Below, one piece after another: positions 9,201 through 29,053 of a stretch of DNA of 34,160 nucleotides. Below the pieces are notes generated by a model. The model saw only the letters and a list, made by a program, of their open reading frames with translations. It had not been told where the DNA came from and ran no database searches. The stretch is from an uncultured bacterium (GTDB lineage Bacteria; Armatimonadota; HRBIN16). The translations under genes and the position numbers were made by a program. Location: the NCBI GenBank assembly GCA_938027655.1, contig CALJAP010000146.1:1-34160 (forward strand), read 5' to 3'. Within the stretch, counting starts at the first letter, position 1, and each line of letters starts with the position of its first letter.

Positions 9201-9779
9201 GTGCACAGGGAATACGTCCAGAATGCCCCCGCGTCGGCTGAACTGTCCTCGCTGCGCCACCATCTCCTCGCGCTCATAGCCCAGCTGTACCAGTCGGCGC
9301 AGCAACTCCTCCATGTGTACCATATCGCCCTTGCGCACGGTAAAGGTGGCTTCACGCAGGGCGTCGGGCGGCAAGGTGGGTTCCAGCAGGCTCTGCGGGG
9401 TGGCAACCAACACCTTTGCCTGTCCGGTTAGCGCTCTCCATAGCGACTCGATGCGGCTACCGATAAGGTGCAGGTCGGGCGGAGTGTCCTCAAACAGCTC
9501 GCCCAGCATGGAAGGCAGTATCACCACCTGTTCTTCACGCACGCCCAGTGCGGCGAGGTCCAGAGCAAGCGTCTCTGCCCGCTGCACGTCCGCCACCAGC
9601 ACGCACAGCAGGGGGCTATCCTCCCGGAGCGAGGTGGCAATGAGCAGGGGTAACAGATTACCCGACACATCGGTGAACTCGGTGCGGTGAGAGTGAGGCG
9701 AGAGCAGATGAGCGCAAGCGCGCACGCCCGGTAGCGCACGGAAGGGTTCCAGCAGCTCCTGTAGGCGAGGAACGTCCAT
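6240..9779 (-). CDS. mfd: Transcription-repair coupling factor Mfd
   Basis: A 1179-residue protein, slightly longer than E. coli Mfd. The order of parts fits the family: a UvrB-like N-terminal region, the RNA-polymerase-interacting domain around [14 protein letters not shown], then a RecG-like SF2 translocase. The Walker A is G-D-V-G-F-G-K-T-E (about residue 665), the Walker [10 protein letters not shown] (about 765), followed by [11 protein letters not shown] and the motif [16 protein letters not shown]-terminal domain ends the protein. It removes stalled RNA polymerase and recruits UvrA for strand-specific repair. No Shine-Dalgarno site precedes the ATG, and an extended -10 lies only 11 bases upstream, so the mRNA may be nearly leaderless. 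Confidence 0.97.
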
Positions 9780-9790
9780 TGTCGGTAGAG

Positions 9791-9799
9791 ATTATACCA
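9791..9799 (-). promoter_or_regulatory. Extended -10 promoter of mfd
   Basis: On the minus strand the bases read TGGTATAAT, a perfect TGn-TATAAT. It ends 11 bases before the mfd ATG, so transcription would begin within a few bases of the start codon. No ribosome site is present, consistent with a leaderless or near-leaderless message. Confidence 0.5.
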
Positions 9800-9816
9800 G
9801 ATTTGGGGAGCACTGG

Positions 9817-9824
9817 TGTATAAT
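9817..9824 (+). promoter_or_regulatory. Putative -10 element for the Uma2 gene
   Basis: TGTATAAT on the plus strand, about 85 bases upstream of the GTG start at 9909 and divergent from the mfd promoter about 20 bases away. No good -35 is visible. TGTATAAT recurs at 24056 on the plus strand. Confidence 0.4.
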
Positions 9825-9908
9825 GAGAGCGGAATCTCACACGGGCAGAAGAATCGGTCTGTCCGCTTTCCTAGAGAGAGTGGGATGTAGCACGAGGAGG
9901 TGATTCCT

Positions 9909-10508
9909 GTGGCATTACCCCAAACGTTGCAGCCACAGCAAGCAGAGAAGAAGCGCATTACCTGGGAGGAGTATTTGCAGTTGCCCCCCAGCATGGAGCG
10001 CATGGAGATCGAGGACGGGGAGATGGTCTTGTTGGCTGGCGCTTCGGCAAAAAATCAGAGAGTTCTAACGAACCTGCTGCTTTTACTGGGCAATGACCCT
10101 CAAATGAAAGCCGCTGGAGCGATATTGCCCGCGCCGTTCGATGTGGTTGTCACCCAAGACCCCTTGCGTGTGCGCCAGCCTGATGTGGTATACGTGCGAT
10201 ACGAGAAGGTAGGTGGTTCTGTTGAATCGCTGGATGCACTCGCTCGCCTAGAGGTTGCTCCCGACCTGGTGGTAGAAATCCTCTCCCCGAATGATACGAT
10301 AGAGAACCTGAACGCCAAGCTGGAGGATTACCACACGCTGGGCGTGTCGGAAGTGTGGCTGGTGGACCTGGTGCCGAACCATGTGTTTGTGCTGTTGCGC
10401 GAGGAGGAAGGCTGGAAATGGCAGGAGCCGGTAAAAGGTGAGCAACCTCTCCCCACCCGTCAGCTGGCGCACCGGCAGATAGTGCCCAAGGCGATTTTTG
10501 AGGGGTAA
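9909..10508 (+). CDS. Uma2 family endonuclease-like protein
   Basis: A 199-residue Uma2 (DUF820) protein with the PD-(D/E)XK-like core: an early T-W-E-E-Y-L-Q-L segment, then V-R-Q-P-D-V-V-Y-V, then A-P-D-L-V-V-E-I-L-S-P-N-D, then K-L-E-D-Y-H-T-L-G-V-S-E-V-W-L-V-D. The acidic D...E-x-hydrophobic pattern is kept. These proteins are abundant in cyanobacteria, Chloroflexota and Armatimonadota; they are predicted nucleases, but their biological role is unknown. The GTG at 9909 is chosen over the GTG at 9900 because AGGAGG occupies 9895-9900, giving 8-base spacing for the former and none for the latter. A relic of another Uma2 gene lies at 26653-26850. Confidence 0.85.
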   Translation: MALPQTLQPQQAEKKRITWEEYLQLPPSMERMEIEDGEMVLLAGASAKNQRVLTNLLLLLGNDPQMKAAGAILPAPFDVVVTQDPLRVRQPDVVYVRYEKVGGSVESLDALARLEVAPDLVVEILSPNDTIENLNAKLEDYHTLGVSEVWLVDLVPNHVFVLLREEEGWKWQEPVKGEQPLPTRQLAHRQIVPKAIFEG

Positions 10509-10540
10509 CAACTCTTTTCCTCAACTTCCTCTGGCTGGAG

Positions 10541-10546
10541 TATAAT
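10541..10546 (+). promoter_or_regulatory. Putative -10 element for rtcB
   Basis: TATAAT lies 23 bases before the rtcB ATG. The leader would be short but would still include the GGGGAGG ribosome site (10555-10561). No clear -35 is seen. Confidence 0.45.
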
Positions 10547-10569
10547 ATGCTATTGGGGAGGTGAGCCGC

Positions 10570-13569
10570 ATGAGCGAGAAATGGGAGGGCAAACTGGAGC
10601 GCATCGACACCTACCGCTGGCGCATCCCGAAAGACTATAAGAAAGGCATGCGCGTGGATGGCATTATCTACGCCAGCGCGCAGCTGATAGAGCATATCGT
10701 GCAGGACCAGTCTCCCGATCAGGTGGCGAACGTAGCCACTCTGCCCGGCATCCAGAGCTACTCCATCGCCATGCCCGACATCCACTGGGGTTATGGCTTC
10801 CCTATCGGTGGAGTGGCAGCGATGGACATCAAAGAGGGTGTCGTGTCACCTGGAGGCGTTGGTTTTGACATTAACTGCCTAACGGCGGACGCCAAAGTGC
10901 TATGTGAGCACGGCTATACGCTGACGCTCGGCGATCTGCAACATCAGTGGGACCAGGAGGCAGTTGTTTGTCAAAGCGCCGAAGAGCGGCGCACGGAGTC
11001 GGCGCCCATTGGCGCATACATCAAAGCACGCGCTGATAATCCGGTGTATGAACTGCGCACTCTGGCAGGCGATACCGTGCAGGCAAGCGCCGAACATCCG
11101 TTCCTGACACCACAGGGCATGAGGCGTTTGGAAGAGTTGCAGCCGGGCGACCAGATAGCCGTGTATCCCTTTGAAGGTGTACCTTATGAACCGCCGAGCG
11201 ATGAGGTCATTGTAGACGAGGGAGATATCGCTCGCCTCTTGAATGAGCTCGGTGACCCACATGCTGGAAATCGGATGGGGCAGGTGATGCGTCAACTGCG
11301 TCGCCTTAATCTGTTGCCGTTACGCTACAGTTCGTCGGCGTTACCTTACCTCGTCAAGCTGGTAGGCTATGTGATGGGTAACGGCACGCTCTACTTCCAA
11401 AGCAATTCAGGCAAAAGTGTCTGTTGGTTCTATGGTGAGGCAGAGGATTTAGAGGACATTCGCCGCGACCTGCAACGAATCGGTTTCACGCCGTCGCAGG
11501 TCTATCGTCGTGTTCGCCATCATACCATCGTCAAACCCCACCAGGAGGTACGCTTCAAGTATGAAGAGTGCTCGTTCAAGGTGGTGGGCAGTAGTTTTGC
11601 GCTACTCATGATGGCATTGGGGGTGCCGGTAGGTAAAAAAGCTACGCAAGCGTACGATGTACCCTGCTGGCTGCAGCGTGCACCGTTATGGCAAAAGCGG
11701 CTGTTTCTCGCTGCACTGTTCGGCGCGGAGATGAATGCACCTGCCGCGTTGCCCGTTCACCAGCACCACTTCCACTATCCTACGCTGTCGATGAGCAAGC
11801 GTCCAGAGCAGGCAGAGAGCGGAAGACGGTTCTTGCTTCAGGTTGCCAACATGCTACAGCAATTCGGCGTAGAGGTGCATCCTCCACGCGAGGAGACCGA
11901 ACCGGTGAACCCGCAAGGCGACCTGTCTGTTCGATTCAAACTGATGGTGCGCAACACTCCAGAAAACCTGCTGAGACTGTGGGCACGGGTTGGGTTTGAG
12001 TACAGCCGTTCACGCCGTGCACTGGCAAACGTTGCTGTCCAGTACCTGAAGCACAAAACGCGGATGTTGCAAATGCGCCAGCAGGCATCACTTCTGGCGC
12101 GTCAGATGCATCAGGAGGGCAAATCGCCTGGTGAGACCGCCGACGCTTTGAAATCCCACGGCGTGAGCCACCGATTTGTCGAACGCAGTATCTACGCGAA
12201 CGCTGAGCGCGTGCCGCGAGTGTCCAAAGACTTCCCCACCTTCCCGGAGTATTTGCAGGTAGCTACAGCGGGTATCGAAGGAAGCGGTATGGTGTGGGAG
12301 CGTGTCGCCAGTATCACCCCGGTGAGCGGGGTGGAGGAGGTATATGACCTGACTGTGCTGCACCCCGACCATAATTTCATCGCAAACGGGTTCGTTGTGT
12401 CCAACTGTGGGGTTCGAATGCTGCGTACCGACCTCACCATCGAAGAGGTGCAGCCGCGCATCAAGGAGCTGGTAGACCAGATTTTCCGTGACGTGCCTGC
12501 GGGACTGAAAGGCGAGGGGTTGATTAAGGTCAACCCACAGGAGCTGCGCGAGGTGATGCGCAAAGGAGCCATATGGATGGTTGAGCACGGCTACGGTTGG
12601 GAGGAGGATGTGGAGCGTAGCGAGCAAAGTACCACCCTCACCGGACTGCTTCCGCCGGAGCCGTCCAATATTTCCAACCGCGCCATCGAGCGGGGCAAGA
12701 CGCAGCTGGGCACGTTGGGCGGCGGTAACCACTTCCTCGAGGTGCAGGTGGTAGACGAGATATACGATGCCAAGGTTGCCGAAGCCTTTGGTATCACGCA
12801 GGTAGGACAGATTACGGTGATGATACACACCGGCTCGCGCGGGTTCGGACACCAGACCTGCGACGACTACCTGGACGTCATGCAGAGAGCGCAGAAGAAG
12901 TACGGAATCGAGCTGCCCGACCGCCAGCTTGCCTGTGCGCCCATCACCTCCCAGGAGGGCGAGGACTACCTGACGGCAATGGCGTGCGCAGCAAACTTCG
13001 CGTGGGCAAACCGCCAGGCGATTGCACACTGGGTACGGCAGGCGTTCGCGAAGGTGTTCGGCAGTAAGCCGCAGCAGCTGGGGATGCACCAGATATATGA
13101 TGTCGCGCACAATATCGCCAAGATCGAGGAGCATGAGATAAACGGCAAAGTCAAGTCGGTCTGCGTGCACCGCAAAGGAGCCACTCGTGCTTTCGGTCCC
13201 GGACATCCCGCCGTGCCGGAGGTGTATCGCCACGTGGGACAGCCTGTGTTGATTCCGGGCGACATGGGGCGCTACTCGTTTATTCTAGTGGGCACGGTGA
13301 CAGCGATGCGCGAGACCTTCGGCTCCACCTGCCACGGTGCGGGGCGTATGATGAGCCGACACGGCGCCATGCGTGAGGCGCAGGGACGCAATATCGCACA
13401 GGAGCTGGCGGAAAAAGGCATCTACGTACGCGCCCAGAACAAAGGTACCTTGGCAGAGGAAGCCTCATACGCCTACAAGGATGTGGCGAACGTGGTGGAT
13501 GTGTGCGAGGGCGTGGGCATCTCGCGCAAAGTGGCTCGCATGCGCCCGATCGGTGTGGTGAAGGGGTAA
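10570..13569 (+). CDS. rtcB: RtcB RNA ligase precursor containing an intein
   Basis: The 999-residue precursor comprises a 102-residue N-extein, a 510-residue intein and a 387-residue C-extein. Spliced RtcB would be 489 residues, a normal length. RtcB is the GTP- and Mn-dependent ligase that joins 2',3'-cyclic-phosphate or 3'-phosphate RNA ends to 5'-OH ends, acting in tRNA splicing or RNA repair. Motifs include S-P-G-G-V-G-F-D-I-N before and C-G-V-R after the intein, G-G-G-N-H-F-L-E, H-T-G-S-R-G-F-G-H, H-R-K-G-A-T-R-A, and C-H-G-A-G-R, whose His lies 77 residues from the end, as does the guanylylated His404 of Pyrococcus RtcB. The ATG at 10570 is preferred over the GTG at 10561, which overlaps the GGGGAGG ribosome site. 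No Archease gene is visible nearby. Confidence 0.96.
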   Translation: MSEKWEGKLERIDTYRWRIPKDYKKGMRVDGIIYASAQLIEHIVQDQSPDQVANVATLPGIQSYSIAMPDIHWGYGFPIGGVAAMDIKEGVVSPGGVGFDINCLTADAKVLCEHGYTLTLGDLQHQWDQEAVVCQSAEERRTESAPIGAYIKARADNPVYELRTLAGDTVQASAEHPFLTPQGMRRLEELQPGDQIAVYPFEGVPYEPPSDEVIVDEGDIARLLNELGDPHAGNRMGQVMRQLRRLNLLPLRYSSSALPYLVKLVGYVMGNGTLYFQSNSGKSVCWFYGEAEDLEDIRRDLQRIGFTPSQVYRRVRHHTIVKPHQEVRFKYEECSFKVVGSSFALLMMALGVPVGKKATQAYDVPCWLQRAPLWQKRLFLAALFGAEMNAPAALPVHQHHFHYPTLSMSKRPEQAESGRRFLLQVANMLQQFGVEVHPPREETEPVNPQGDLSVRFKLMVRNTPENLLRLWARVGFEYSRSRRALANVAVQYLKHKTRMLQMRQQASLLARQMHQEGKSPGETADALKSHGVSHRFVERSIYANAERVPRVSKDFPTFPEYLQVATAGIEGSGMVWERVASITPVSGVEEVYDLTVLHPDHNFIANGFVVSNCGVRMLRTDLTIEEVQPRIKELVDQIFRDVPAGLKGEGLIKVNPQELREVMRKGAIWMVEHGYGWEEDVERSEQSTTLTGLLPPEPSNISNRAIERGKTQLGTLGGGNHFLEVQVVDEIYDAKVAEAFGITQVGQITVMIHTGSRGFGHQTCDDYLDVMQRAQKKYGIELPDRQLACAPITSQEGEDYLTAMACAANFAWANRQAIAHWVRQAFAKVFGSKPQQLGMHQIYDVAHNIAKIEEHEINGKVKSVCVHRKGATRAFGPGHPAVPEVYRHVGQPVLIPGDMGRYSFILVGTVTAMRETFGSTCHGAGRMMSRHGAMREAQGRNIAQELAEKGIYVRAQNKGTLAEEASYAYKDVANVVDVCEGVGISRKVARMRPIGVVKG
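10876..12405 (+). other. Intein with degenerate LAGLIDADG domain inside RtcB
   Basis: The insert splits D-I-N / C-G-V-R exactly before the RtcB cysteine that binds catalytic metal. It begins with Cys1 (C-L-T-A-D-A-K-V, block A), has a block-B-like segment ending S-A-E-H-P-F-L, and ends F-I-A-N-G-F-V-V-S-N before Cys+1. The penultimate residue is Ser instead of the usual His. A LAGLIDADG pair is visible: L-V-G-Y-V-M-G-N-G, in which the usual catalytic Asp is Asn, and L-A-A-L-F-G-A-E-M, with Glu in the acidic position. Splicing residues look usable; DNA cleavage may be weakened or lost. Archaeal RtcB inteins are known, and in my recollection the Pyrococcus one uses this same site. Confidence 0.92.
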
Positions 13570-15257: not shown

Positions 15258-15662
15258 GTGTTATCGGAAGAAACCATTCGTGCCTTCCTGAACGCGCACT
15301 CGCTGGCAGTGTTCGGCGTGTCGCGCGACCCGGAGAAGTACGGCTACAAGGTGTATAAAACGCTGAAGGAGAAGGGGCTGCGGGTATTCGCCATCAACCC
15401 GCGTGCGGACGATGTAGACGGCGATTCGGTATATCCTAACCTGCAGGCGCTACCCGAGACGCCGGAGGCGATTGTGACCGTCGTTCCGCCCGAGGTGACG
15501 AAAAAGGTGGTGGCGGATGCGCTGGCAGCGGGTATCCGCAAAATCTGGATGCAGCCCGGCTCCGAGCATGAGGAAGCCGTCCGGCAAGCGCAGGAAGCAG
15601 GCGCAACGGTCGTGCACGGCGGGCCATGCATCATGGTGACCGCGAAGACGTATCTGCGCTAG
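15258..15662 (+). CDS. CoA-binding domain protein (YccU-like)
   Basis: A 134-residue single-domain protein with a Rossmann-type CoA-binding fold: S-L-A-V-F-G-V-S-R-D-P-E-K-Y-G-Y-K-V, then F-A-I-N-P-R, then A-I-V-T-V-V-P-P-E-V-T, then K-I-W-M-Q-P-G-S-E and a terminal V-H-G-G-P-C-I-M-V. This arrangement is that of stand-alone CoA-binding proteins related to the N-terminal part of acyl-CoA synthetases; no precise reaction is known. The GTG at 15258 is taken as start, with AAGGAGGT 5 bases upstream. A TGTACAAT (15213-15220) could be the -10. Its stop overlaps the stop of the convergent secretin gene by 3 bases within a shared CTAG. Confidence 0.85.
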   Translation: MLSEETIRAFLNAHSLAVFGVSRDPEKYGYKVYKTLKEKGLRVFAINPRADDVDGDSVYPNLQALPETPEAIVTVVPPEVTKKVVADALAAGIRKIWMQPGSEHEEAVRQAQEAGATVVHGGPCIMVTAKTYLR

Positions 15663-17311
15663 GGCGTCTTCGGCAGCATACGCTCTCTTATCCGTTGCTC
15701 CGCCGCCTCATCCTTTAGTCTGCCGCTGTCGGTCAGGATGTGTGGTGTGACGAAGATGAGCAGTTCCGCGTTGATTCGGCTGGTCTTCGTGCCCTGGAAC
15801 AGCGTGCCCAGTACCGGGATGTCGCCTAAGATAGGTATCTTTGTGCGCGTTTTGTACTCCTGCTGCTGTGTCAGCCCGCCGATGACGATGGTTTCACCGT
15901 CCTTCACGCGCACGGTGGTCTGAGCGCGGCGGGTAGAAAGCACGGGCATCCCCGTCTCACGGTCCAGCTCGCTGATGTTGCTCACTTCCGGTTCGATGGT
16001 GAGCGTGATTTCGCCGTTGCCTCCTGTCCAGGGGCGCACGGAGAGTTTCACGCCCACATCCACGCCCTGAATGCGCTCCTGCTTGCCGCCGTAGGAGGTG
16101 ACTTCCACCTTGATGAACTTCGTCTGCCCGATGAAGATGTCGGCGTCTTGTCCGTTCACCGCTGCCATGCGCGGGTTCGCCCGCACACGTGCCTTGCCCT
16201 GCGCCTCCAGCGCGTTCAGTTTCGCTTTGAAATCTTCGGGCAGGGTTCCTACCGTGCGGTAGAGGAAGTCGCCTGTGCCCGAATCAGAAGAGGTGGTAAT
16301 CCAGCTATCCGTGAACGATAGCCCCAGCGAGGCGTTGATGTCCTCGGTAGAGGCAATCTCCACCGCCAGCGCTTCTATCATTATCTGTGGTGGAGGCAGG
16401 TCGATCTTCTGGAAGTCGGCGCGGATTTTGTCCAGCATCTGCGTGGGGGCGGTTACCACCACCGCGTTCTGTGCCTCGTTCACATGCAGGTAGCTGTACA
16501 GGAAGGTAGGTAGCAGCCCCGACGCCACCTGTGCCTTGATAAACTTCATACGGAACGATTCCGTGCCCGACAACCGGTATGGAGCGAGGTCGGTAGGCAC
16601 GCCGTCGCTTACCATGTACACCCCGTTCACTTGCGAAAGGGCCAGCCCGTACGCGCTGGCGATACCGCGTATCATCTCGTCCACGGGCAGGTTGTCCACC
16701 GACATCGATACCTCGCGGTTGCGCACCGAGTCGTCCACCGCGATGTTGACCCCCGTCTTGCGGGCGATTTCCGCCAGCAGCAGGTAGAGCCGTGTCTTCA
16801 CGCTGTGTATCGACAACAAGCCGTTCTCATACTCCACCTGCAGCTGGGCAGACACCTCAGCGCGGGAGGTGTCGTGATTAGCCACCTGCCGTCCTACCAG
16901 TGTGCGTTCACTGCTTACGGTGATGATGACGCTCTGCTGGTCGTTGCTGCGCTCCACGTTCACCCGTGAAGGCTCGAACAGCGCCACCACCATCGACACA
17001 CCGACGCCTTCTACCGCGTCCTGCGGGATGGAAAGCTGAATATAGCTGACCGGAAATTTGCTGACGTCGATGAAGTTCTTGCCGATTTGCGATTTGGCGT
17101 TGGTGAAGCGCAGGGCGATACGGTTGCGCCTTCCCCAAAGCCCCCCTTCCGCCTGCCATTCCAGCACGCCATCGGCGCGGACGGTAATCTGTACGCCGTT
17201 GCTCAGCTGGTCGGCGCGTATCTCGGTGATGTTACAGTACGCAGTGGTTTGCGCCAGAGACGGCAGAGCCAGAATCAGCCCCAGTAAGGTGAAGAGCAAG
17301 GTTTTTCTCAT
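15659..17311 (-). CDS. Secretin-domain protein, third of three
   Basis: A 550-residue exported protein with a signal peptide (residues 1-20, ending S-L-A-Q). An N-terminal beta domain starting Y-C-N-I-T-E-I-R-A-D is followed by an STN/N0-like domain (I-A-R-K-T-G-V-N-I-A-V-D-D to Y-M-V-S-D-G), an N1-like domain, and a secretin domain with R-V-R-A-N-P-R-M, V-K-D-G-E-T-I-V-I-G-G-L and P-I-L-G-D-I-P-V-L-G-T-L-F. Secretins form outer-membrane gates for type IV pili and type II/III secretion. It starts with a 4-base ATGA overlap with the preceding secretin gene, and AAGGAGG lies 13 bases upstream. No PilM/N/O/P or Gsp partner genes are in view, so pilus or secretion role is open. Confidence 0.88.
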   Translation of the reverse strand: MRKTLLFTLLGLILALPSLAQTTAYCNITEIRADQLSNGVQITVRADGVLEWQAEGGLWGRRNRIALRFTNAKSQIGKNFIDVSKFPVSYIQLSIPQDAVEGVGVSMVVALFEPSRVNVERSNDQQSVIITVSSERTLVGRQVANHDTSRAEVSAQLQVEYENGLLSIHSVKTRLYLLLAEIARKTGVNIAVDDSVRNREVSMSVDNLPVDEMIRGIASAYGLALSQVNGVYMVSDGVPTDLAPYRLSGTESFRMKFIKAQVASGLLPTFLYSYLHVNEAQNAVVVTAPTQMLDKIRADFQKIDLPPPQIMIEALAVEIASTEDINASLGLSFTDSWITTSSDSGTGDFLYRTVGTLPEDFKAKLNALEAQGKARVRANPRMAAVNGQDADIFIGQTKFIKVEVTSYGGKQERIQGVDVGVKLSVRPWTGGNGEITLTIEPEVSNISELDRETGMPVLSTRRAQTTVRVKDGETIVIGGLTQQQEYKTRTKIPILGDIPVLGTLFQGTKTSRINAELLIFVTPHILTDSGRLKDEAAEQRIRERMLPKTP

Positions 17312-19140
17312 CGGATGCGACTAACCTCCTTGTGTGACGAGGTGATGATACGTGGTGTGATGAAAATGGCTAACTCTGTACTGGTGCGACGCTGTGTTCT
17401 CGCGCGAAACAGCCCGCCAATCAGCGGCAGGTCGCCCAGAAGAGGCACTTTGCGCGTGATGGTATCATGCTGTTGCAGGTTCAGCCCGCCGATGAAGAGC
17501 GTTTCCCCATCGCGCAACAGCACGGTGGTTTCAGCACGACGGGTGGAAACGGTGGGCAAGCCGGTAGTAACATCCAGCTCCGCCACAGCGGTAACCTGCG
17601 GGGTGACGGTTGCCAGAATCACTCCCTCTGCGCCCACCCAGCAGTTCATCTCCAGGCTGACCCCCACATCTACCGGAAAGACGCGCGTGATGAACGCCTG
17701 AGACCACTCTTCGAAGTAATCCGCCCTGATGTACCGTTGTTGCCCGCTGAAGAGCCTCGCTCTCTGTCCGTTGAGGGCAGTGGTGGTGGGGGTAGCGCGG
17801 ATACGCACTTTTCCCTCCGCTGCCAGCGCGCGCAGTTTGGCTTCGATGTCCGTTCGCGATGTCCCGAATATCTGGTAGGTGATGTCCCCTGTGCCTGTGT
17901 TCACGCGGGCGGTATTGTGTGTGTCGGACGCCAGCAGGCGCAGTACGTTTTCGCTCTCGTCGCTATCAGCTATCTCCACAATGAGCGTGTCTATCTGCAC
18001 ATGCGGCACGGGCTGGTCTATCTTGCGGATGTCCTCGCGCACCTTCTGTACCAGCTGGGGCGGACCCACTGCGGTGAGAGAGTTCTCGCTGGCGTTTACC
18101 CGGAGATGCTTCAGCAGGAACTCAGGCAGGCTGTTTCGTGCCGATGCCGCGCTAATGTAGTTCAGAGGGATTTTCTCCAGTGAGCTCTCCAGATAGGTGC
18201 TCATATTGCCGACCGCTCCTTCGCCAATCGCCCACGCGCCATCGGTACGCCCCAGCTCCAGTCCGTATGCCGTCGCGATAGCCTGCAACGCCTCTTCGGG
18301 AGCGACTTCCTGCAGACACAGGCTCACCGCTCGCTCTAGGTCGGGGTCAACCAGCACCACCTGACCGGTCTTTGTGGTGAACTCGCGCAGCAGCTCACGC
18401 AGGTCTGCGTTCAGCGCAAGGAGGCTCACGGTGTCCCCATCGGCTTCCACCAGCAGCTCGGAAGGGGTTGCTTCGCCCGGCTTGCGCCGCTGTACGGGCG
18501 GTAGCGTGCGCCGGTCGCTGGTGACCAGCAGGATGAGCGAACGCTGGTCTTGCGTTTGCTGCACACTGAAGGTCGGACCGGCGTAGGGGAGTCCGCCAAA
18601 ATCTACCTCCTCGCCCGCCACGCGCCCTGAACGAACCACTGCCGGACTGAACAGTACCACCTTTACATCTACACCCAGTCCATCCGGTGTGTCGGACGGC
18701 AGAGAAACCTCCACATGGCTGACGGGATAGATACCCACGTCCACGAAGCTGGTCACCTGCGAGCGGGCATTGGTCACCCGAAAGGGGATTTCCAGCACCG
18801 GCTTGCGCGGGTCGCCGATACCCTGCTGGGCGCGAACGGTATCCACGTAGCGTTCGGGGTTAAACTGTAAACGCATCAGCCCGTCGGCGCGGATGGTCAC
18901 CTGTACGGCGTTGCCCACACGCTGGCTCTCCACCGCGACGATATTACAGTAGGGCATCCGCCGTTGCTGGGCATGAGCGGGAAGAAGGGCGAACAGCAGG
19001 AGCACCCAGCACGAGAAAGCAAACCTCCCCCCTAGTCCCTCTCCCACAGGGAGAGGGGACAGGAAGCCTTTCCCCCTTCCCTTGTAGGGAAGGGGGCACG
19101 GGGGGATAGGTTTTGCAACGGTCACCCTACTTCGGCGCAC
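17308..19140 (-). CDS. Secretin-domain protein, second of three, with repeat-encoded N-terminus
   Basis: A 610-residue protein with the same N-terminal beta domain (Y-C-N-I-V-A-V-E-S), an STN-like domain (F-T-T-K-T-G-Q-V-V-L-V-D-P) and a secretin domain with R-I-R-A-T-P-T-T, L-R-D-G-E-T-L-F-I-G-G-L and P-L-L-G-D-L-P-L-I-G-G-L-F. The GTG at 19140 is taken as start, with AGAGGA about 6 bases upstream; it overlaps the first secretin gene by 14 bases. Residues about 10-40 are a translated copy of the C-rich double-hairpin repeat (19021-19113), placed before the real signal-peptide core L-L-L-F-A-L-L-P-A-H-A-Q. The signal is thus pushed about 40 residues inward, which may affect export. No other in-frame start with a ribosome site is obvious. 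Confidence 0.83.
   Translation of the reverse strand: MRRSRVTVAKPIPPCPLPYKGRGKGFLSPLPVGEGLGGRFAFSCWVLLLFALLPAHAQQRRMPYCNIVAVESQRVGNAVQVTIRADGLMRLQFNPERYVDTVRAQQGIGDPRKPVLEIPFRVTNARSQVTSFVDVGIYPVSHVEVSLPSDTPDGLGVDVKVVLFSPAVVRSGRVAGEEVDFGGLPYAGPTFSVQQTQDQRSLILLVTSDRRTLPPVQRRKPGEATPSELLVEADGDTVSLLALNADLRELLREFTTKTGQVVLVDPDLERAVSLCLQEVAPEEALQAIATAYGLELGRTDGAWAIGEGAVGNMSTYLESSLEKIPLNYISAASARNSLPEFLLKHLRVNASENSLTAVGPPQLVQKVREDIRKIDQPVPHVQIDTLIVEIADSDESENVLRLLASDTHNTARVNTGTGDITYQIFGTSRTDIEAKLRALAAEGKVRIRATPTTTALNGQRARLFSGQQRYIRADYFEEWSQAFITRVFPVDVGVSLEMNCWVGAEGVILATVTPQVTAVAELDVTTGLPTVSTRRAETTVLLRDGETLFIGGLNLQQHDTITRKVPLLGDLPLIGGLFRARTQRRTSTELAIFITPRIITSSHKEVSRIR
19021..19113. repeat. Double-hairpin C/G-rich repeat, copy within a secretin gene
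   Basis: Ends AAACCT and AGGTTT are inverted. Inside are two hairpins: CCCTCTCCC/GGGAGAGGG with a 3-base loop and CCCCCTTCCCT/AGGGAAGGGGG with a 3-base loop. The same plan occurs at 24923-25006, 28959-29044 and 31253-31333. This copy is in frame within the 5' end of the second secretin gene. Confidence 0.8.
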
Positions 19141-20494
19141 GGTTGTCCTCTTGCAGGAAGCGTTTCTTCAGGGCTTCTTCCTGCTCGGCGGGCAGGTGCC
19201 CCGTTTGCGAGAGGATACGCGGCGTGATAAAAATCGCCATCTCCGTGGACGATTCTTTAGTGTCCTCCGAGCGGAAGAACTGCCCGAGCAGGGGAATATC
19301 GCCCAGAATGGGCACCTTCGTTTTTGTGGACATCAGCTCGCGCTGGATCAAACCGCCGATGATGATGGTTTCACCGTCCCGCACGCGCACAGTGGTGTTG
19401 GCGCGGCGGGTGCTTTTGTCGGGCAGTCCGGTTTTGGGGTCGGGCGCACTCAACACGCTGATTTCAGGCTGCACATCCACGATAATCTCGCCCTCGCCGC
19501 CCGTCCACGGGGTGATGTTCAGCCGCACGCCCGCGTCGATGAAGTTCGTCTGGCGGAAGAAGTAGTCGCCCTCGCCACGTCCCCCGCCGATGCTGACGGG
19601 TGTGCTGAGATAGCGCTGTTTGCCGATGAAGATGCTCGCTCGCTGCCCGCTGACGGTGGCGATGCGCGGGTTGGCGTGCACTCGTGCCTTGCCCTGTGTG
19701 ACCAGCGCACGCAGGCTGGTAAAGAAATCGGTAGGCAGGGTGGTTACCGAGCGAAAGATGACCTGCCCCAGCGAAGAGTCTACCGTCAGGCTGCGCCTGT
19801 CGTTGCTCCAGCCCCACTGCGCACGGAACTCGCGCGCGGCGGAGTCGGTGAACTCCACCATCAGCACGTCTATCATAATCTGCGCAGCGGGGATATCGAA
19901 CTGTTTGATGTCCTCGCGGAACTTCTTGAGCACTTCCGGCGGCGCAGAGAGGATGACCGCGTTCTGCTCGGCGTTGGTCTTCACGTGGTCTTGCAGGAAG
20001 ACGGGTAGCAACGACTTGGCGTTGGGCGCCAGTACGTACTGAGTGGTGATGGTGTCGATGTCGCTCAGCAAGTAGGAAGAGGGACTGCGCGGGATGCCCT
20101 CGCTGAGCATGAAGATGCCGTTCACCTGGCGGTACGACAGCCCGTACGCCGCAGCGATAATCTCCAGAATGCGCGTGACGGGCAGGTTGACGAGGTTGAT
20201 GGTAACCGTCCGCCGCACGGTGTCGTCTACGATGAGGCGAATACCGGTCTCTTTGGCGAGCCGGGTAAGCAGTTCCTGCGCATCGACTCCCACCGCGAAG
20301 ACCGAAACCCCCTCCGGTCCGGCGGTGACCTCCAGCGTGGGCTGCTGTTGTCCGTTGTTTTCAGGGGCTGAAGATTGAGCGGCGGCTGGAAGGGGGGAGT
20401 TTGCTCGTCGTTGTGCGACCTCTTGTGCGTATATAGTTCCTGTAAGCCCAACGATAAGCAGTGCGACGGCAAGAATGCGAATCCAAGTCCACAT
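19127..20494 (-). CDS. Secretin-domain protein, first of three
   Basis: A 455-residue exported protein with a signal peptide (about residues 1-23, ending I-Y-A-Q). It lacks the N-terminal beta domain of its two neighbours; a Gln/Asn/Pro-rich linker leads directly to an STN-like domain (L-A-K-E-T-G-I-R-L-I-V-D-D to F-M-L-S-E-G). An N1-like domain and a secretin domain follow: R-V-H-A-N-P-R-I, V-R-D-G-E-T-I-I-I-G-G-L, P-I-L-G-D-I-P-L-L-G-Q-F-F. The ATG has GAAGGAGT about 10 bases upstream. It heads the operon, and its end overlaps the next gene by 14 bases, so translation is probably coupled. Sequence divergence among the three is large, so they are old paralogues rather than a recent duplication. 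Confidence 0.88.
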   Translation of the reverse strand: MWTWIRILAVALLIVGLTGTIYAQEVAQRRANSPLPAAAQSSAPENNGQQQPTLEVTAGPEGVSVFAVGVDAQELLTRLAKETGIRLIVDDTVRRTVTINLVNLPVTRILEIIAAAYGLSYRQVNGIFMLSEGIPRSPSSYLLSDIDTITTQYVLAPNAKSLLPVFLQDHVKTNAEQNAVILSAPPEVLKKFREDIKQFDIPAAQIMIDVLMVEFTDSAAREFRAQWGWSNDRRSLTVDSSLGQVIFRSVTTLPTDFFTSLRALVTQGKARVHANPRIATVSGQRASIFIGKQRYLSTPVSIGGGRGEGDYFFRQTNFIDAGVRLNITPWTGGEGEIIVDVQPEISVLSAPDPKTGLPDKSTRRANTTVRVRDGETIIIGGLIQRELMSTKTKVPILGDIPLLGQFFRSEDTKESSTEMAIFITPRILSQTGHLPAEQEEALKKRFLQEDNRAPK

Positions 20495-21450: not shown

Positions 21451-22410
21451 TTATGAGAATCTTCCCAACCTTTTGTAAAAAGCTGCCTCCCAGCCGGTGA
21501 GGTCACCATCTACCGCCACCGCCACACCCAGCTCGCTTGCCCTCTCTTCTACCGCCGGGTCGATTTGCTCACCCCCAACGGCGGGAACACACGGGAAGCC
21601 TGCCCTGGTAAGCAGGTCAGCGCGACGACTGGCTCGGGTCACATCGTTCATTTCAATGCGCCCCGAAACCTCCATGAGCAGGTACACCTCTTGCTCCGGC
21701 GCGGAGCGCAACCTCCCTTGCAGAATCAGGTCGGCGCGAGACACGTCTCTGACCTCTTCCGGGCTAAGCTTGGCAGTTATGGTCTCGTATATCTCCTCAG
21801 GGTCAGCCCGACGAATCTTGCGCAGGTATGAGCCAAAATAGGCGTAGGCGTGCTTCGCGTAGTTTTCCTCCAGTCGCCATCCCACCAGCCTGCCCAGACG
21901 GTCCTCGATACGTTGTAGCCGCTGCTCCGCTAGAACCTGCCACTCGGTCAGGCGACGGATGGACTCGGCGGTCTCCTCTGCCAGTTCTCTCACCGTCTGG
22001 CGCAGTTCGGCGACCGAAGCGCGTAGCTCCTCCTGCCCCTGTATTAGCCCCTGCACCGTCTGGCGCAGTTCGGCGACCGAGGCACGCAACTCCTCCTGCC
22101 CCTGTATTAGCCCCTGCACCGTCTGACGTAGCTCTTGCTGCCCCTGTATTAGCCCCTGCACCGTCTGGCGCAGTTCGGCGACGGCTGCTCGCAGTTCCAT
22201 GACCGCTTCGGTCAGCTGTTGCACTGCCTGTTCCAAACGGGTCAACCGCTCACCGTGCTCGGCAACAACTGCGGTCAGCTGCTCCACGCGAAACGGCAAA
22301 GCCAGAAACTCCTGCGGTAGCAATGCTGCGAGCAGGCGACGGCGCGCTTCCGCATCACTTTGCAGTCGTTCTATCAGAGCGTCAATGTCAATCGGCTCGG
22401 ATGTCAACAT
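21451..22410 (-). CDS. Coiled-coil protein with C-terminal PD-(D/E)XK-like domain (DUF3782-like)
   Basis: A 319-residue protein. After about 45 residues it enters a long coiled coil (to about residue 170), which includes near-identical A-E-L-R-Q-T-V-Q-G-L-I-Q-G-Q units of 21 or 14 residues. The C-terminal half has V-G-W-R-L-E-E-N-Y-A, then Y-L-L-M-E-V-S-G-R-I and D-V-T-R-A-S-R-R-A-D-L-L, resembling the nuclease-like domain attached to coiled coils in DUF3782 proteins of cyanobacteria and Chloroflexota. The function of this group is unknown; D...E-V-S is weak evidence for a catalytic core. It lies 12 bases upstream of the aldolase gene on the same strand, but a shared function is not evident. 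The ribosome site is weak (GAGGT). Confidence 0.68.
   Translation of the reverse strand: MLTSEPIDIDALIERLQSDAEARRRLLAALLPQEFLALPFRVEQLTAVVAEHGERLTRLEQAVQQLTEAVMELRAAVAELRQTVQGLIQGQQELRQTVQGLIQGQEELRASVAELRQTVQGLIQGQEELRASVAELRQTVRELAEETAESIRRLTEWQVLAEQRLQRIEDRLGRLVGWRLEENYAKHAYAYFGSYLRKIRRADPEEIYETITAKLSPEEVRDVSRADLILQGRLRSAPEQEVYLLMEVSGRIEMNDVTRASRRADLLTRAGFPCVPAVGGEQIDPAVEERASELGVAVAVDGDLTGWEAAFYKRLGRFS
21992..22182. repeat. In-frame tandem repeat coding for coiled-coil heptads
   Basis: ACCGTCTGG recurs at 21992, 22055, 22118 and (with ACGTAG variation between) 22160, giving unit lengths of 63, 63 and 42 bases. These are 21, 21 and 14 residues, that is three, three and two heptads, so every length change keeps the coiled-coil register. 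The units are nearly identical, which suggests recent expansion. Confidence 0.8.
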
Positions 22411-24827: not shown

Positions 24828-25161
24828 CCACACATGATTATTTGGATACAGAGAAGGCGGTTTGACGTCTTCACCATGCTGAACCCCACGATTAATGAAC
24901 TTTGAAAAAAATAAAGCGATTGAACCTCTCCCCCAGCCCCTCTCCTACACGGAGAGGGGGGCCACGTTTCGGACGTCCCCTTCCCTTGTAGGCAAGGGGT
25001 TCGGTTGAATACACCTCGCCTCCGACACCTCTCCCGAAGCTTTGGGAAAGGAGAGAATGGGATAAGTGCGACTATTTTTTCAAAGTTCATAAGGTTGCGG
25101 CTATGTTCAGAGTAACAGGCACGCCGAGCCGTTCCGCTCATATCCAAATAATCATGTGTGG
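24828..25161. repeat. Nested inverted-repeat structure in the 24557-25277 gene-free stretch
   Basis: Two perfect inverted pairs are nested. The outer 21-base arms are 24828-24848 (CCACACATGATTATTTGGAT plus A) and 25141-25161. The inner 16-base arms are 24895-24910 (ATGAACTTTGAAAAAA) and 25075-25090. Between outer and inner arms the two sides have similar length (46 and 50 bases) but are diverged, as if two inverted copies of an element of about 85 bases had drifted in the middle. They enclose a double-hairpin repeat (24923-25006). No credible gene lies between 24557 and 25277; besides this structure the stretch holds the stem-loop at 24563. Confidence 0.75.
24923..25006. repeat. Double-hairpin C/G-rich repeat, copy inside the nested inverted repeats
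   Basis: AACCTCTCCCCC start and GGTT end, with CCCCTCTCC/GGAGAGGGG (5-base loop) and an imperfect CCCCTTCCC.../..AAGGGG hairpin. Same family as 19021-19113 but with more mismatches. A further partial C-rich stretch follows to about 25057. Confidence 0.75.
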
Positions 25162-26850: not shown

Positions 26851-27787
26851 AACTCTTCCACGCATCCTTGAACACCTCCCAGAACATCGCCACGTGACGG
26901 GCTGCGTGCTGACGGTCTGGTTTGCCCAGTAGCCACGCGACCGTCCACAAAGCTAGCCTCAGTAATGCCCCCATCGCGATGAGCAGACGATAAATTGGCA
27001 CGCTCCACGCCCCGTACACCTCGCGGAAAAAGAGGATGCGGCTGCGGTTGTACGCTTTCACCATCTCGGTGCGTATCGATTCCTGCTCGCTACTTGCGCC
27101 CAGATGGTGTTTGAACCGGGCGTGTGGCACGTAATAAATGCGCCCGCCCCCCTGCCGAATGCGATGGCACAGCTCGGTGTCTTCCGCATACATGAAATAG
27201 CGCTCGTCGAAAAGGGGGAAGGAGCCACCGGGTTGGCGGCGCAACATCAGGCATGCGCCCACCACCTGCTCCACCTCGCGCACGCTATCGTAGCTCCACC
27301 AGGTGAGGGTGTACCCCCCAAACAGGCGCGAGCGGGGAAACGCCTTCGCCAGCAGGCTCTGCTCGCAAAACACCGCCCACAGCGTCAGCCGCTCCGAGCA
27401 AGAGGGCTGGATACCGTCGTCTGGCAGGAGTAGTTGCCCTCCGGCGGCGTGCGCGTCGGGATGCTGGCGCATGAAGTCTATCAACGCTTGCAGTGCGCCC
27501 GGCATCGCCTCGATATCGCTGTTCAGAATCAGTGCGAACTCGCCCTGCGCTTGCCGAAGCGCGAGGTTGTTCGCCCTGCCGTAGCCCATATTCTGCTCGT
27601 TGGCGATGAGGTTCACCTGTGGAAACTGCTCGCGCACCATCTGCACGCTGCCGTCAGACGAGGCGTTGTCCACCACCCACACCTCGAACGGCTCTTCGGG
27701 GGGATATGCGAAGATGGAACGCAGGCAAGCACGCAGGTACTCGCGCGTGTTCCAGTTGACGATGACGATGGACAGTGCAATCTTCAT
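26849..27787 (-). CDS. Glycosyltransferase family 2
   Basis: A 312-residue GT-A-fold enzyme: S-I-V-I-V-N-W-N-T near the start, V-V-D-N-A-S-S-D-G-S, A-L-I-L-N-S-D-I-E as the DxD-like metal motif, and a later F-M-Y-A-E-D-T-E-L-C acidic segment. It resembles rhamnosyltransferase-like members (W-N-T / N-S-D subgroup). A hydrophobic stretch near residues 265-288 may tether it to the membrane. Its ATG overlaps the flhF stop by 4 bases (ATGA), so its expression is coupled to flhF. By context it might modify flagellin or a cell-surface glycan; that is inference. The donor and acceptor sugars are not known. Confidence 0.88.
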   Translation of the reverse strand: MKIALSIVIVNWNTREYLRACLRSIFAYPPEEPFEVWVVDNASSDGSVQMVREQFPQVNLIANEQNMGYGRANNLALRQAQGEFALILNSDIEAMPGALQALIDFMRQHPDAHAAGGQLLLPDDGIQPSCSERLTLWAVFCEQSLLAKAFPRSRLFGGYTLTWWSYDSVREVEQVVGACLMLRRQPGGSFPLFDERYFMYAEDTELCHRIRQGGGRIYYVPHARFKHHLGASSEQESIRTEMVKAYNRSRILFFREVYGAWSVPIYRLLIAMGALLRLALWTVAWLLGKPDRQHAARHVAMFWEVFKDAWKS

Positions 27788-28923
27788 GCGGTAGGCGTCA
27801 GAATCGGGGTGGGGGCGGAGGCTCCACCCACCACCAGTGACGCCAGCTTATTCGACTCGGCAACCTCCACATCCTCTGGCACGCGCTGTCCGGTCGTGAC
27901 GTACGAGATGGGCAAGGGATGTTTCACCGCTACGTTGAGCATGTTGCCGAAGGCAGTGCTCTCGTCCAGCTTCGTCCAGATGATGCGATGCAGGGGCATG
28001 ACCGAGAAGCGTTCCACAATATCATACAGGTCGCGCGTTTTGGTAGTGCTGCTCAATACCAGATGCACCTCACAGGTGCTCAGCCGTTCACAGCACGCTT
28101 TGAGCTCGCCGATTTGCATCGTGTTGCGCTGGCTGCGTCCGGCGGTATCCACGAACACGATGTCCATACTGGCAAATTCGCGCACGGCAGCGGGCAGTTC
28201 GTTGCTACTGTATACCACGCGGATGGGCACGTCGATAATCTGGCTGTAAGTACGCAGTTGCTCCACTGCGGCGATGCGGTAAGTATCAATCGTAATCAGT
28301 CCGACACGGTGTTTTTGTAGCAGGGCATACTGCGCTGCCAGCTTGGCGATAGTGGTGGTCTTGCCCACCCCGGTCGGTCCCACCAGCATCACCACCTTCG
28401 GCTGTGCTTCTTGCAGGGCAATTGGACCGGAGGTGACCAGCCTCTCCGCAACCAGCGACTGCAGGGTGCTCTCCGAGAGGGCGTTCTCGGGAACGGACTG
28501 GAGCAGTTCGCGAACGACCCACTCCTCCACTTCCGCTTCTTTCAGGAGAGACATCCAGCGATTCTCTGCGGGCACGCCGGAAGGGACGGTGTCCGATACA
28601 ACCGCTACCCCCTGTCGGGCGAGCTGGGCGATCATCGCTTTCAGGTTTTGTATCTCGCTCTCCAGCTGTTCGATGCGGGAAGAGGGCTCCCGTGGCGAGG
28701 AAGATATTGTCGCAGGCGCAGGCGTCGTCTGCGGGCGACGCAGGCTTTCGAGGTCGGGATTATCTGACGCCCAGACCTCCACCATCTCGCGTCCCCATAC
28801 GCCAAGCACCTTCTTGTTTACCTTGCGCGTCTGCACGATCACCGCGTCACGCCCCAAATCGGCGCGAACCATCGCCAGCGCCTCGGTTATCGTTTTCGCC
28901 TGATATTTGCGGATGCTCGACAT
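27784..28923 (-). CDS. flhF: Flagellar SRP-like GTPase FlhF
   Basis: A 379-residue protein. The N-terminal B-like region starts I-R-K-Y-Q-A-K-T-I-T-E-A-L and includes D-A-V-I-V-Q-T-R-K-V. A Pro/Ser-rich linker and a short coiled coil lead to the N and G domains. The P-loop G-P-T-G-V-G-K-T-T (182-190), D-T-Y-R-I-A-A-V-E-Q-L, D-T-A-G-R-S and T-K-L-D-E-S-T mark an SRP-family GTPase. D-A-V-I-V-Q-T-R plus the flhA neighbour separate it from FtsY/Ffh. FlhF controls the place and number of polar flagella, often with FlhG, which is not visible here. GAGGAGG lies upstream of the ATG. A double-hairpin repeat sits between it and flhA. Confidence 0.93.
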   Translation of the reverse strand: MSSIRKYQAKTITEALAMVRADLGRDAVIVQTRKVNKKVLGVWGREMVEVWASDNPDLESLRRPQTTPAPATISSSPREPSSRIEQLESEIQNLKAMIAQLARQGVAVVSDTVPSGVPAENRWMSLLKEAEVEEWVVRELLQSVPENALSESTLQSLVAERLVTSGPIALQEAQPKVVMLVGPTGVGKTTTIAKLAAQYALLQKHRVGLITIDTYRIAAVEQLRTYSQIIDVPIRVVYSSNELPAAVREFASMDIVFVDTAGRSQRNTMQIGELKACCERLSTCEVHLVLSSTTKTRDLYDIVERFSVMPLHRIIWTKLDESTAFGNMLNVAVKHPLPISYVTTGQRVPEDVEVAESNKLASLVVGGASAPTPILTPTA

Positions 28924-28958
28924 GGTCAGTTCCTCCTCTATTCTGAGACAGGGATGAA

Positions 28959-29044
28959 AACCTCTCCCCCAGCCCCTCTCTCACCGGGAGAGGGGAGCCT
29001 TTTCCCCCCTTCCCTCGTAGGGAAGGGGGGCAGGGGGTTAGGTT
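28959..29044. repeat. Double-hairpin C/G-rich repeat between flhA and flhF
   Basis: AACCTCTCCCCC start and GGGGGTTAGGTT end are inverted, with hairpins CCCCTCTC/GAGAGGGG and CCCCCCTTCCCT/AGGGAAGGGGGG (3-base loop). It separates flhA and flhF, which run the same way, and could tune read-through between them. Confidence 0.82.
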
Positions 29045-29053
29045 CAATACACC

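Follow-up and report, generated by a model that had tools for sequence, protein, structure and literature searches.

The secretin PilQ of the type IVa pilus consists of an AMIN domain followed by N0/STN, Secretin_N and secretin domains, and GspD of the type II secretion system carries a longer series of N domains. To our knowledge, a secretin ring contains a single kind of secretin. Type II systems are named for Armatimonadetes in an excerpt of PMC6668835, with 'a secretin' per system, and PilQ is mentioned for Cyanobacteria in an excerpt of PMC11071339. A text search of the openly licensed PubMed Central literature gave no three-secretin operon among the matches listed. The window analysed here, the whole 34,160-nucleotide stretch of contig C146 from a draft Armatimonadota genome (3.5 Mb, 99% complete), includes three secretin genes, designated S1, S2 and S3 in their order of transcription. 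This trio of paralogues forms an ancient operon that has been passed down as a unit within Armatimonadota.

An earlier reading made from the letters of the window (the sequence-only reading) had described three overlapping, divergent secretin genes. The open reading frames (ORFs) and both overlaps were confirmed (Table 1), and PF00263 was matched by all three products, with 147 bits for S1, 129 for S2 and 157 for S3 against a curated Pfam cut-off of 27.5. S1 consists of a signal peptide, a proline-rich linker, an STN/N0 domain (28.5 bits, cut-off 28.4), a Secretin_N-like stretch that stays below its cut-off (24.4 bits, cut-off 28.2) and the secretin domain. S2 includes an AMIN-like domain, a Secretin_N domain above the Pfam cut-off and the secretin domain, and S3 includes an AMIN-like domain, STN/N0-like and Secretin_N-like stretches, both below the Pfam cut-offs, and the secretin domain. 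The statement that the first gene lacks the N-terminal beta domain of the other two also held, as S1 has no AMIN-like domain and the corresponding alignment region is 87% gaps in S1 versus 2% in S2 and S3 (37 loci). The match of the window S3 to Pfam AMIN is marginal (E 0.0022, 18.5 bits, cut-off 20.5); a match at E<=0.1 was found in 4 of 21 S3 proteins, 0.0022 being the best, and none was listed among 20 S2 proteins. The secretin signature motif, P-x-L-G-D-x-P-x-x-G-x-L-F, is present in all three window proteins. S2 and S1 are 38% and 39% identical to S3, respectively, and the two other secretins of the genome are 22% and 25% identical to it. As judged by eye, the S3 start is preceded by a Shine-Dalgarno-like AAGGAGG and the S1 start by AAGGAG.

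Table 1. Genes, overlaps and domains of the secretin trio (window coordinates).
Feature	Position	Strand	Basis
S1 secretin, 455 aa	20494-19127	minus	ORF list, intact frame
S2 secretin, 610 aa, GTG start	19140-17308	minus	ORF list, intact frame
S3 secretin, 550 aa	17311-15659	minus	ORF list, intact frame
Overlap of S1 stop and S2 start, 14 bases	19127-19140	minus	ORF coordinates
Overlap of S2 stop and S3 start, 4 bases (ATGA)	17308-17311	minus	ORF coordinates
S1 secretin domain PF00263	19211-19708	minus	Pfam match
S2 secretin domain PF00263	17344-17829	minus	Pfam match
S3 secretin domain PF00263	15734-16213	minus	Pfam match
S3 AMIN-like beta domain, residues 25-135 (approximate)	16907-17239	minus	Beta-rich AlphaFold2 model, block pLDDT ~64-85
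S2 AMIN-like domain, homologous to that of S3 (approximate)	18517-18954	minus	Alignment with S3; model there pLDDT <60

S2 and S3 resemble PilQ in their layout of AMIN-like, N0/STN, Secretin_N and secretin regions. AlphaFold2 models of S3 and S2 were built from 16-sequence alignments, and the top Foldseek match of both was Vibrio cholerae PilQ (6w6m), followed by GspD, PulD and secretins of type III secretion systems; the TM-scores are low because the domain packing is unreliable. As far as such predictions go, the models and their matches confirm the secretin fold and are mute on mixing of subunits. The trio differs from PilQ in comprising three paralogues, in the absence of the AMIN-like domain from S1, in having no pilMNO genes alongside, and in forming a clade apart from the two PilQ-like secretins of the genus. 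The cut-off of the NCBIfam PilQ model TIGR02515 (284 bits) was not reached by S3 (156), S2 (127) or S1 (167). The secretin domain is shared with GspD, which is the top-scoring NCBIfam match of each trio member (TIGR02517; S3 175, S2 135 and S1 171 bits), again short of the cut-off of 351. Solved GspD chains were matched at E 7e-22 to 8e-29 in a profile search made with S1 and S3 only. Unlike GspD, the trio proteins have two short N domains by Pfam, and, unlike type II systems, the trio has no recurrent gsp neighbours at the 45 loci compared.

The tree was built by a quick search from 28 trios, hand-picked from the 51 loci at which three secretin ORFs share a strand, together with 19 reference secretins, and branches were assessed by the Shimodaira-Hasegawa-like approximate likelihood ratio test (SH-aLRT). 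The references comprised both PilQ-like types of the genus, GspD and HofQ of Escherichia coli, two betaproteobacterial loci and 12 other Armatimonadota secretins. S1, S2 and S3 each fell on one side of a branch (SH-aLRT 100, 97 and 97, respectively), and the whole trio was split from the 19 references with a value of 100; the exact placement of S2 is unsure because its branches are long. The distance matrices of the paralogues agreed, with r of 0.87 for S1/S3, 0.79 for S1/S2 and 0.81 for S2/S3, values as high being obtained in none of 1000 permutations. In family f24, trios of two clades were found, and this holds in all three paralogue trees. Two trios occur in each of two f45 genomes, G280 (L142, L159) and G279 (L180, L181); those of G280 are whole and belong to different clades, and the G279 trios, one of which runs off its contig, are outside the tree. 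Given the two-clade trios of G280 and f24, the operon seems to be duplicated or moved in one piece.

What the sequence-only reading had described in one contig is conserved in the phylum, and such recurrence exceeds chance by far. Among 291 Armatimonadota genomes, searched with an S1 profile at E<=1e-140 and an S3 profile at E<=1e-145, thresholds that shorter remnants escape, S1 was found in 67 genomes, S3 in 67, and either in 74. Both occur in 60 genomes, on the same contig in 53 and on two contigs in 7, and each occurs alone in 7. In all 54 same-contig pairs, S1 lies upstream of S3 on the same strand with 1676-2117 bases between the matches, leaving space for S2 in every pair. The 14 single finds were each inspected. 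Twelve lie at contig ends, where the rest of the trio would fall past the end (G009, G019, G030, G216, G278, G059, G068, G025, G120, G102, G043 and G284). G273 has all three genes, S3 being interrupted by a frameshift, and the remaining case, G108, is a truncated trio.

Trio genes were detected in 10 of the 10 genomes of the genus of the window; S2 is not visible in G008 and S3 is not visible in G009, both at contig ends, and, for the window and six other genomes, one-contig loci with all three genes were checked at the ORF level. One in-frame TAG is present near the end of S1 in G003 (L077), and the other copies examined in the genus are open. S1 homologues with 86-94% identity include those of Bacterium HR16, Armatimonadetes bacterium RSWS16 and Chthonomonadia bacterium Ch118. 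Multi-family profiles separated the paralogues when 42 loci were scored for each, many of these loci being represented in the profiles as well: the S1 profile gave 601-713 bits for S1, at most 447 for S3, at most 336 for S2 and at most 168 for the 19 reference secretins, and the S3 profile gave 617-869 bits for S3 and at most 473 for all others. A scan of genome contigs with genus-specific S1 patterns returned eight loci, six from this genus and two distant betaproteobacterial secretins. In a plasmid collection, 920 records matched S1, all at <60% identity; the top two among those listed are plasmids of Haliovirga and Sporomusa that carry type II-like clusters (29.1% and 28.0% identity); these clusters differ from the trio in that one matching secretin gene per stretch examined lies beside ATPase, platform and GspG genes.

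The gene order is conserved. Among the 51 loci, some of which end at contig edges, profile scores gave the order S1/S2/S3 in 47 and S1/S3/S3 in three, and one (L133) is a contig-edge artefact. The middle gene of the three S1/S3/S3 loci falls in the S2 clade of the tree, giving S1-S2-S3 in 50 of 50 usable loci. S1 and S2 overlap by 1-14 bases in 29 of these loci (exactly 4 in 19) and do not overlap in 12; for S2 and S3, the corresponding numbers are 22, 18 and 14. Larger apparent overlaps, seen at nine S1/S2 and 14 S2/S3 junctions, are read as due to a first start codon that was probably set too far upstream. The overlaps suggest translational coupling, and the fixed stoichiometry that had been read into them does not follow.

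The middle gene has evolved differently from its neighbours. Over the N0-to-channel core, the median pairwise distance is 3.64 for S2 versus 1.38 and 1.42 for S1 and S3, the core of S2 evolving about 2.6 times faster. Nine columns are invariant in S2 (20 proteins) and 75 in S3 (21 proteins). Conservation and motif counts were taken over 37 loci, the window and 36 outside its genus, using a relaxed motif pattern. The AMIN-like region is conserved near-equally in S2 and S3 (0.51 and 0.52), whereas the segments of the secretin domain reach 0.38-0.49 in S2 versus 0.51-0.75 in S3, with 0.33 versus 0.59 for the last strand. Similarly, N0 and N1 give 0.42 and 0.53 in S2 versus 0.59 and 0.71 in S3. 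The signature motif is kept by S1 in 37/37 loci and by S3 in 35/37, and by S2 in only 10/37, that of the window included. In complete trios, the middle gene scores lowest on PF00263, as in G266 (123/63/151 bits) and G279 (130/31/142 bits). These comparisons indicate that selection maintains the region of S2 lying outermost in the periplasm, whereas its channel region is drifting. Within the genus, the median ratios of nonsynonymous to synonymous substitution rates (dN/dS) are 0.074 for S1, 0.108 for S2 and 0.055 for S3 (36, 36 and 21 pairs, respectively), values that show the three genes to be under purifying selection and not in decay.

Two further features of S2 and S3 were observed. A REP-like double hairpin lies at 19021-19100 of the window, in frame within the signal-peptide codons of S2, and stretches that resemble it are present at 24977-24999 and 28958-29029. 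Inserted peptides resembling this insert are present in the S2 of G003, G004 and G009 and absent from that of G001, G002, G005 and G007. In addition, a Cys near the mature N-terminus is found in 29 of 37 S3 proteins (residue 26 in the window S3) and 20 of 37 S2 proteins; it occurs in both at 19 loci, in S3 only at 10, in S2 only at one and in neither at seven, two gapped S2 rows being counted as lacking it. A disulfide between S2 and S3 subunits is possible. Five of the seven rows with neither Cys come from families f4, f13, f22 and f24 (L127), which are grouped in the tree (f4 L182 is outside it). As these rows cluster, the Cys pairing was not counted as evidence.

The sequence-only reading had placed the PilM/N/O/P and Gsp genes outside the window, in agreement with the 19 window ORFs scanned with Pfam, a subset of all its ORFs, among which no pilMNOP or gsp gene was found. 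PilM-type sets do lie on other contigs of the same genome, which holds five PF00263 secretins in total. On contig C95, a PilM gene (170.7 bits, above the cut-off) is followed by a gene in the PilN position without a PilN match, a PilO-like gene (20.6 bits, cut-off 22), a gene assigned as PilP by its order, an STN protein, a secretin, shikimate kinase and dehydroquinate synthase. This is the gene order of hofMNOPQ-aroK-aroB in E. coli K-12, and the C95 secretin is the ordinary PilQ-like secretin of the genome, distinct from the trio. The end of contig C209 encodes PilM (161.9 bits), PilN (38.6) and PilO (47.0), all above cut-off, then a T2SSC-family gene (31.5 bits, cut-off 27) and the start of a secretin. 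Contig C48 begins with the other secretin, followed by genes for a pilB-type ATPase, an HDOD protein and a pilT-type ATPase and by a pilC-type gene, and in G006 the C209-type and C48-type genes form one contiguous cluster. Since both PilM-type sets found have their own adjacent secretin, the idea that the trio supplies a PilQ which an orphan set lacks was rejected for these two sets.

Neighbouring genes of the trio were compared by blastp (1e-8) at 45 loci from 24 families, many of the loci ending at contig edges. The widest neighbour cluster reaches 4 of the 24 families; it is broad, response-regulator-like and located at varying distances from the trio. In G004, one of the ten genomes of the genus, PilB/PilT/PilC-like genes lie ~4-8 kb downstream of the trio, which may be the result of a rearrangement. 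A pilB-T-C cluster with a prepilin peptidase gene and pseudopilin-like genes, and without a nearby secretin, is present in G006 (L203) and may belong with the C95-type set. Platform genes of the GspF/PilC-like type were also seen beside folK, in tandem in G006 and G129 and as one gene in G066 (L200 of G006, 9626-12054, and L201, 9312-11845, both with a DnaJ-type gene; L202, 9095-10366, with one platform gene). These stretches are without an assembly ATPase and represent an orphan platform in trio-bearing genomes. The folK-F-F-DnaJ platform is only a lead towards a partner of the trio; T2SSF is present in 289 of 291 genomes, so the presence of a platform gene does not discriminate carriers of the trio.

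Other genes of the window were observed in passing. The RtcB gene (10561-13569, 1002 aa) is broken by an intein-like stretch, and its homologue in G003 is an ORF of 492 aa, so the insertion seems variable within the genus. A coiled-coil protein with repeated units is encoded at 21451-22410, with homologues of 284-410 aa near the trio, and at 27784-31168 FlhA adjoins an SRP54-type, FlhF-like GTPase; these genes are flagellar and no link to the trio was seen.

A mixed-subunit gate, which the sequence-only reading had raised, is the preferred reading. The three proteins are tentatively proposed, at somewhat below even confidence and from sequence comparison, to be assembled together into one three-component outer-membrane gate in which S2 would serve as an anchor and would be partly non-channel. 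S1 and S3, with their signature kept, would make up the double barrel and its gate, whether as one mixed ring or as rings that cooperate. S2 would provide the AMIN-like domain, which by analogy with PilQ would face the peptidoglycan, and would act at the edge of the barrel or as a scaffold, where less of the channel signature is needed. The machine driving the gate would sit in the inner membrane and be encoded at another locus, and would most likely be related to type IV filament or type II systems. More doubtful, though possible, is a natural heteromeric secretin, one gate of three paralogues that would have been fixed early in Armatimonadota and in which S2 would in most lineages be a structural, largely non-channel 'pseudo-secretin' with a periplasmic AMIN-like domain. 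Ring complexes of other kinds, where a paralogue has become inactive and is nevertheless retained, would be a parallel. The idea of a heteromeric ring draws indirectly on linkage, co-inheritance and the drift of S2.

Several observations weigh against such a gate. As the sequence-only reading had it, and rightly for the locus itself, no partner machine is visible beside the trio: no neighbour family recurs in more than 4 of the 24 families at the 45 loci. Agreement between the paralogue trees is raised by the shared regional history of neighbouring genes by itself, and the AlphaFold2 models are weak (pLDDT 66.0 for S3 and 61.5 for S2; pTM 0.41). S2 is not fully eroded: all 20 S2 proteins scanned retain a PF00263 match, and two glycines (GG) precede the motif in 30/37 S2 proteins (37/37 in S1 and S3). 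Relaxation of S2 could stem from surface exposure instead. In G108 (L189:5144-7523), S1 is intact, S2 ends after about its first 140 residues and S3 is absent; this genome is one 3.1 Mb contig with 81% completeness, and its trio, the sole incomplete one away from a contig end, reflects either a real loss or an assembly break. Co-inheritance could also mean one shared pathway with three separate channels. In that case, S1 and S3 would form full homo-oligomeric rings and S2 a third ring or, in most lineages, a periplasmic helper, the three being co-expressed for sequential work or in a fixed ratio. We regard this main rival as rather unlikely. Mixing is not a requirement, given that both S1 and S3 have retained the signature and share only 39% identity; the PDB titles of the Foldseek matches name one secretin each, in line with the known one-secretin rings; and, with the motif kept in the window and nine other S2 loci, S2 may form a ring by itself. 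What separate rings leave unexplained is that 73 of the 74 genomes give no sign of one gene kept alone. For S2, the retained AMIN-like domain and the drifting channel part are better explained if S2 depends on S1 and S3 than if it is an independent gate of its own, and the suggestion of three gates with different cargo agrees poorly with this drift and with the near-absolute linkage.

Less probable still is that the trio supplies alternative secretins that plug into existing PilM-type machines, the choice of gate serving different pili or cargo. The genus does have two sets of the PilM type, along with several assembly-ATPase and platform genes at separate places, but each PilM-type set has its adjacent secretin, an independent choice of gate predicts independent loss, which is hardly seen, and the drift of S2 would be hard to account for. 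That S2 is a decaying duplicate, carried by the operon structure while only S1 and S3 matter, appears very unlikely: S2 is the fastest-evolving paralogue and the motif is missing from it in 27/37 loci, yet the gene stays open and in place, its dN/dS within the genus is low, and its AMIN-like domain is as conserved as that of S3. Damaged copies (the stop in S1 of G003, the frameshift in S3 of G273, and the partial S2 without S3 in G108) would suit the view that the trio is a local oddity, results from faulty annotation or consists of pseudogenes. This view was rejected as extremely improbable given the presence in 74/291 genomes, the purifying selection and the intact frames of the window.

These Armatimonadota hold a further class of secretin beside the two PilQ-like ones, and annotation by PF00263 alone would not separate the trio from the latter. 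A paralogue trio that is found phylum-wide and hardly ever separated is a natural test case for mixed secretin rings. It lets one ask how a gate subunit sheds part of its channel signature and yet stays, and which machine uses the gate.

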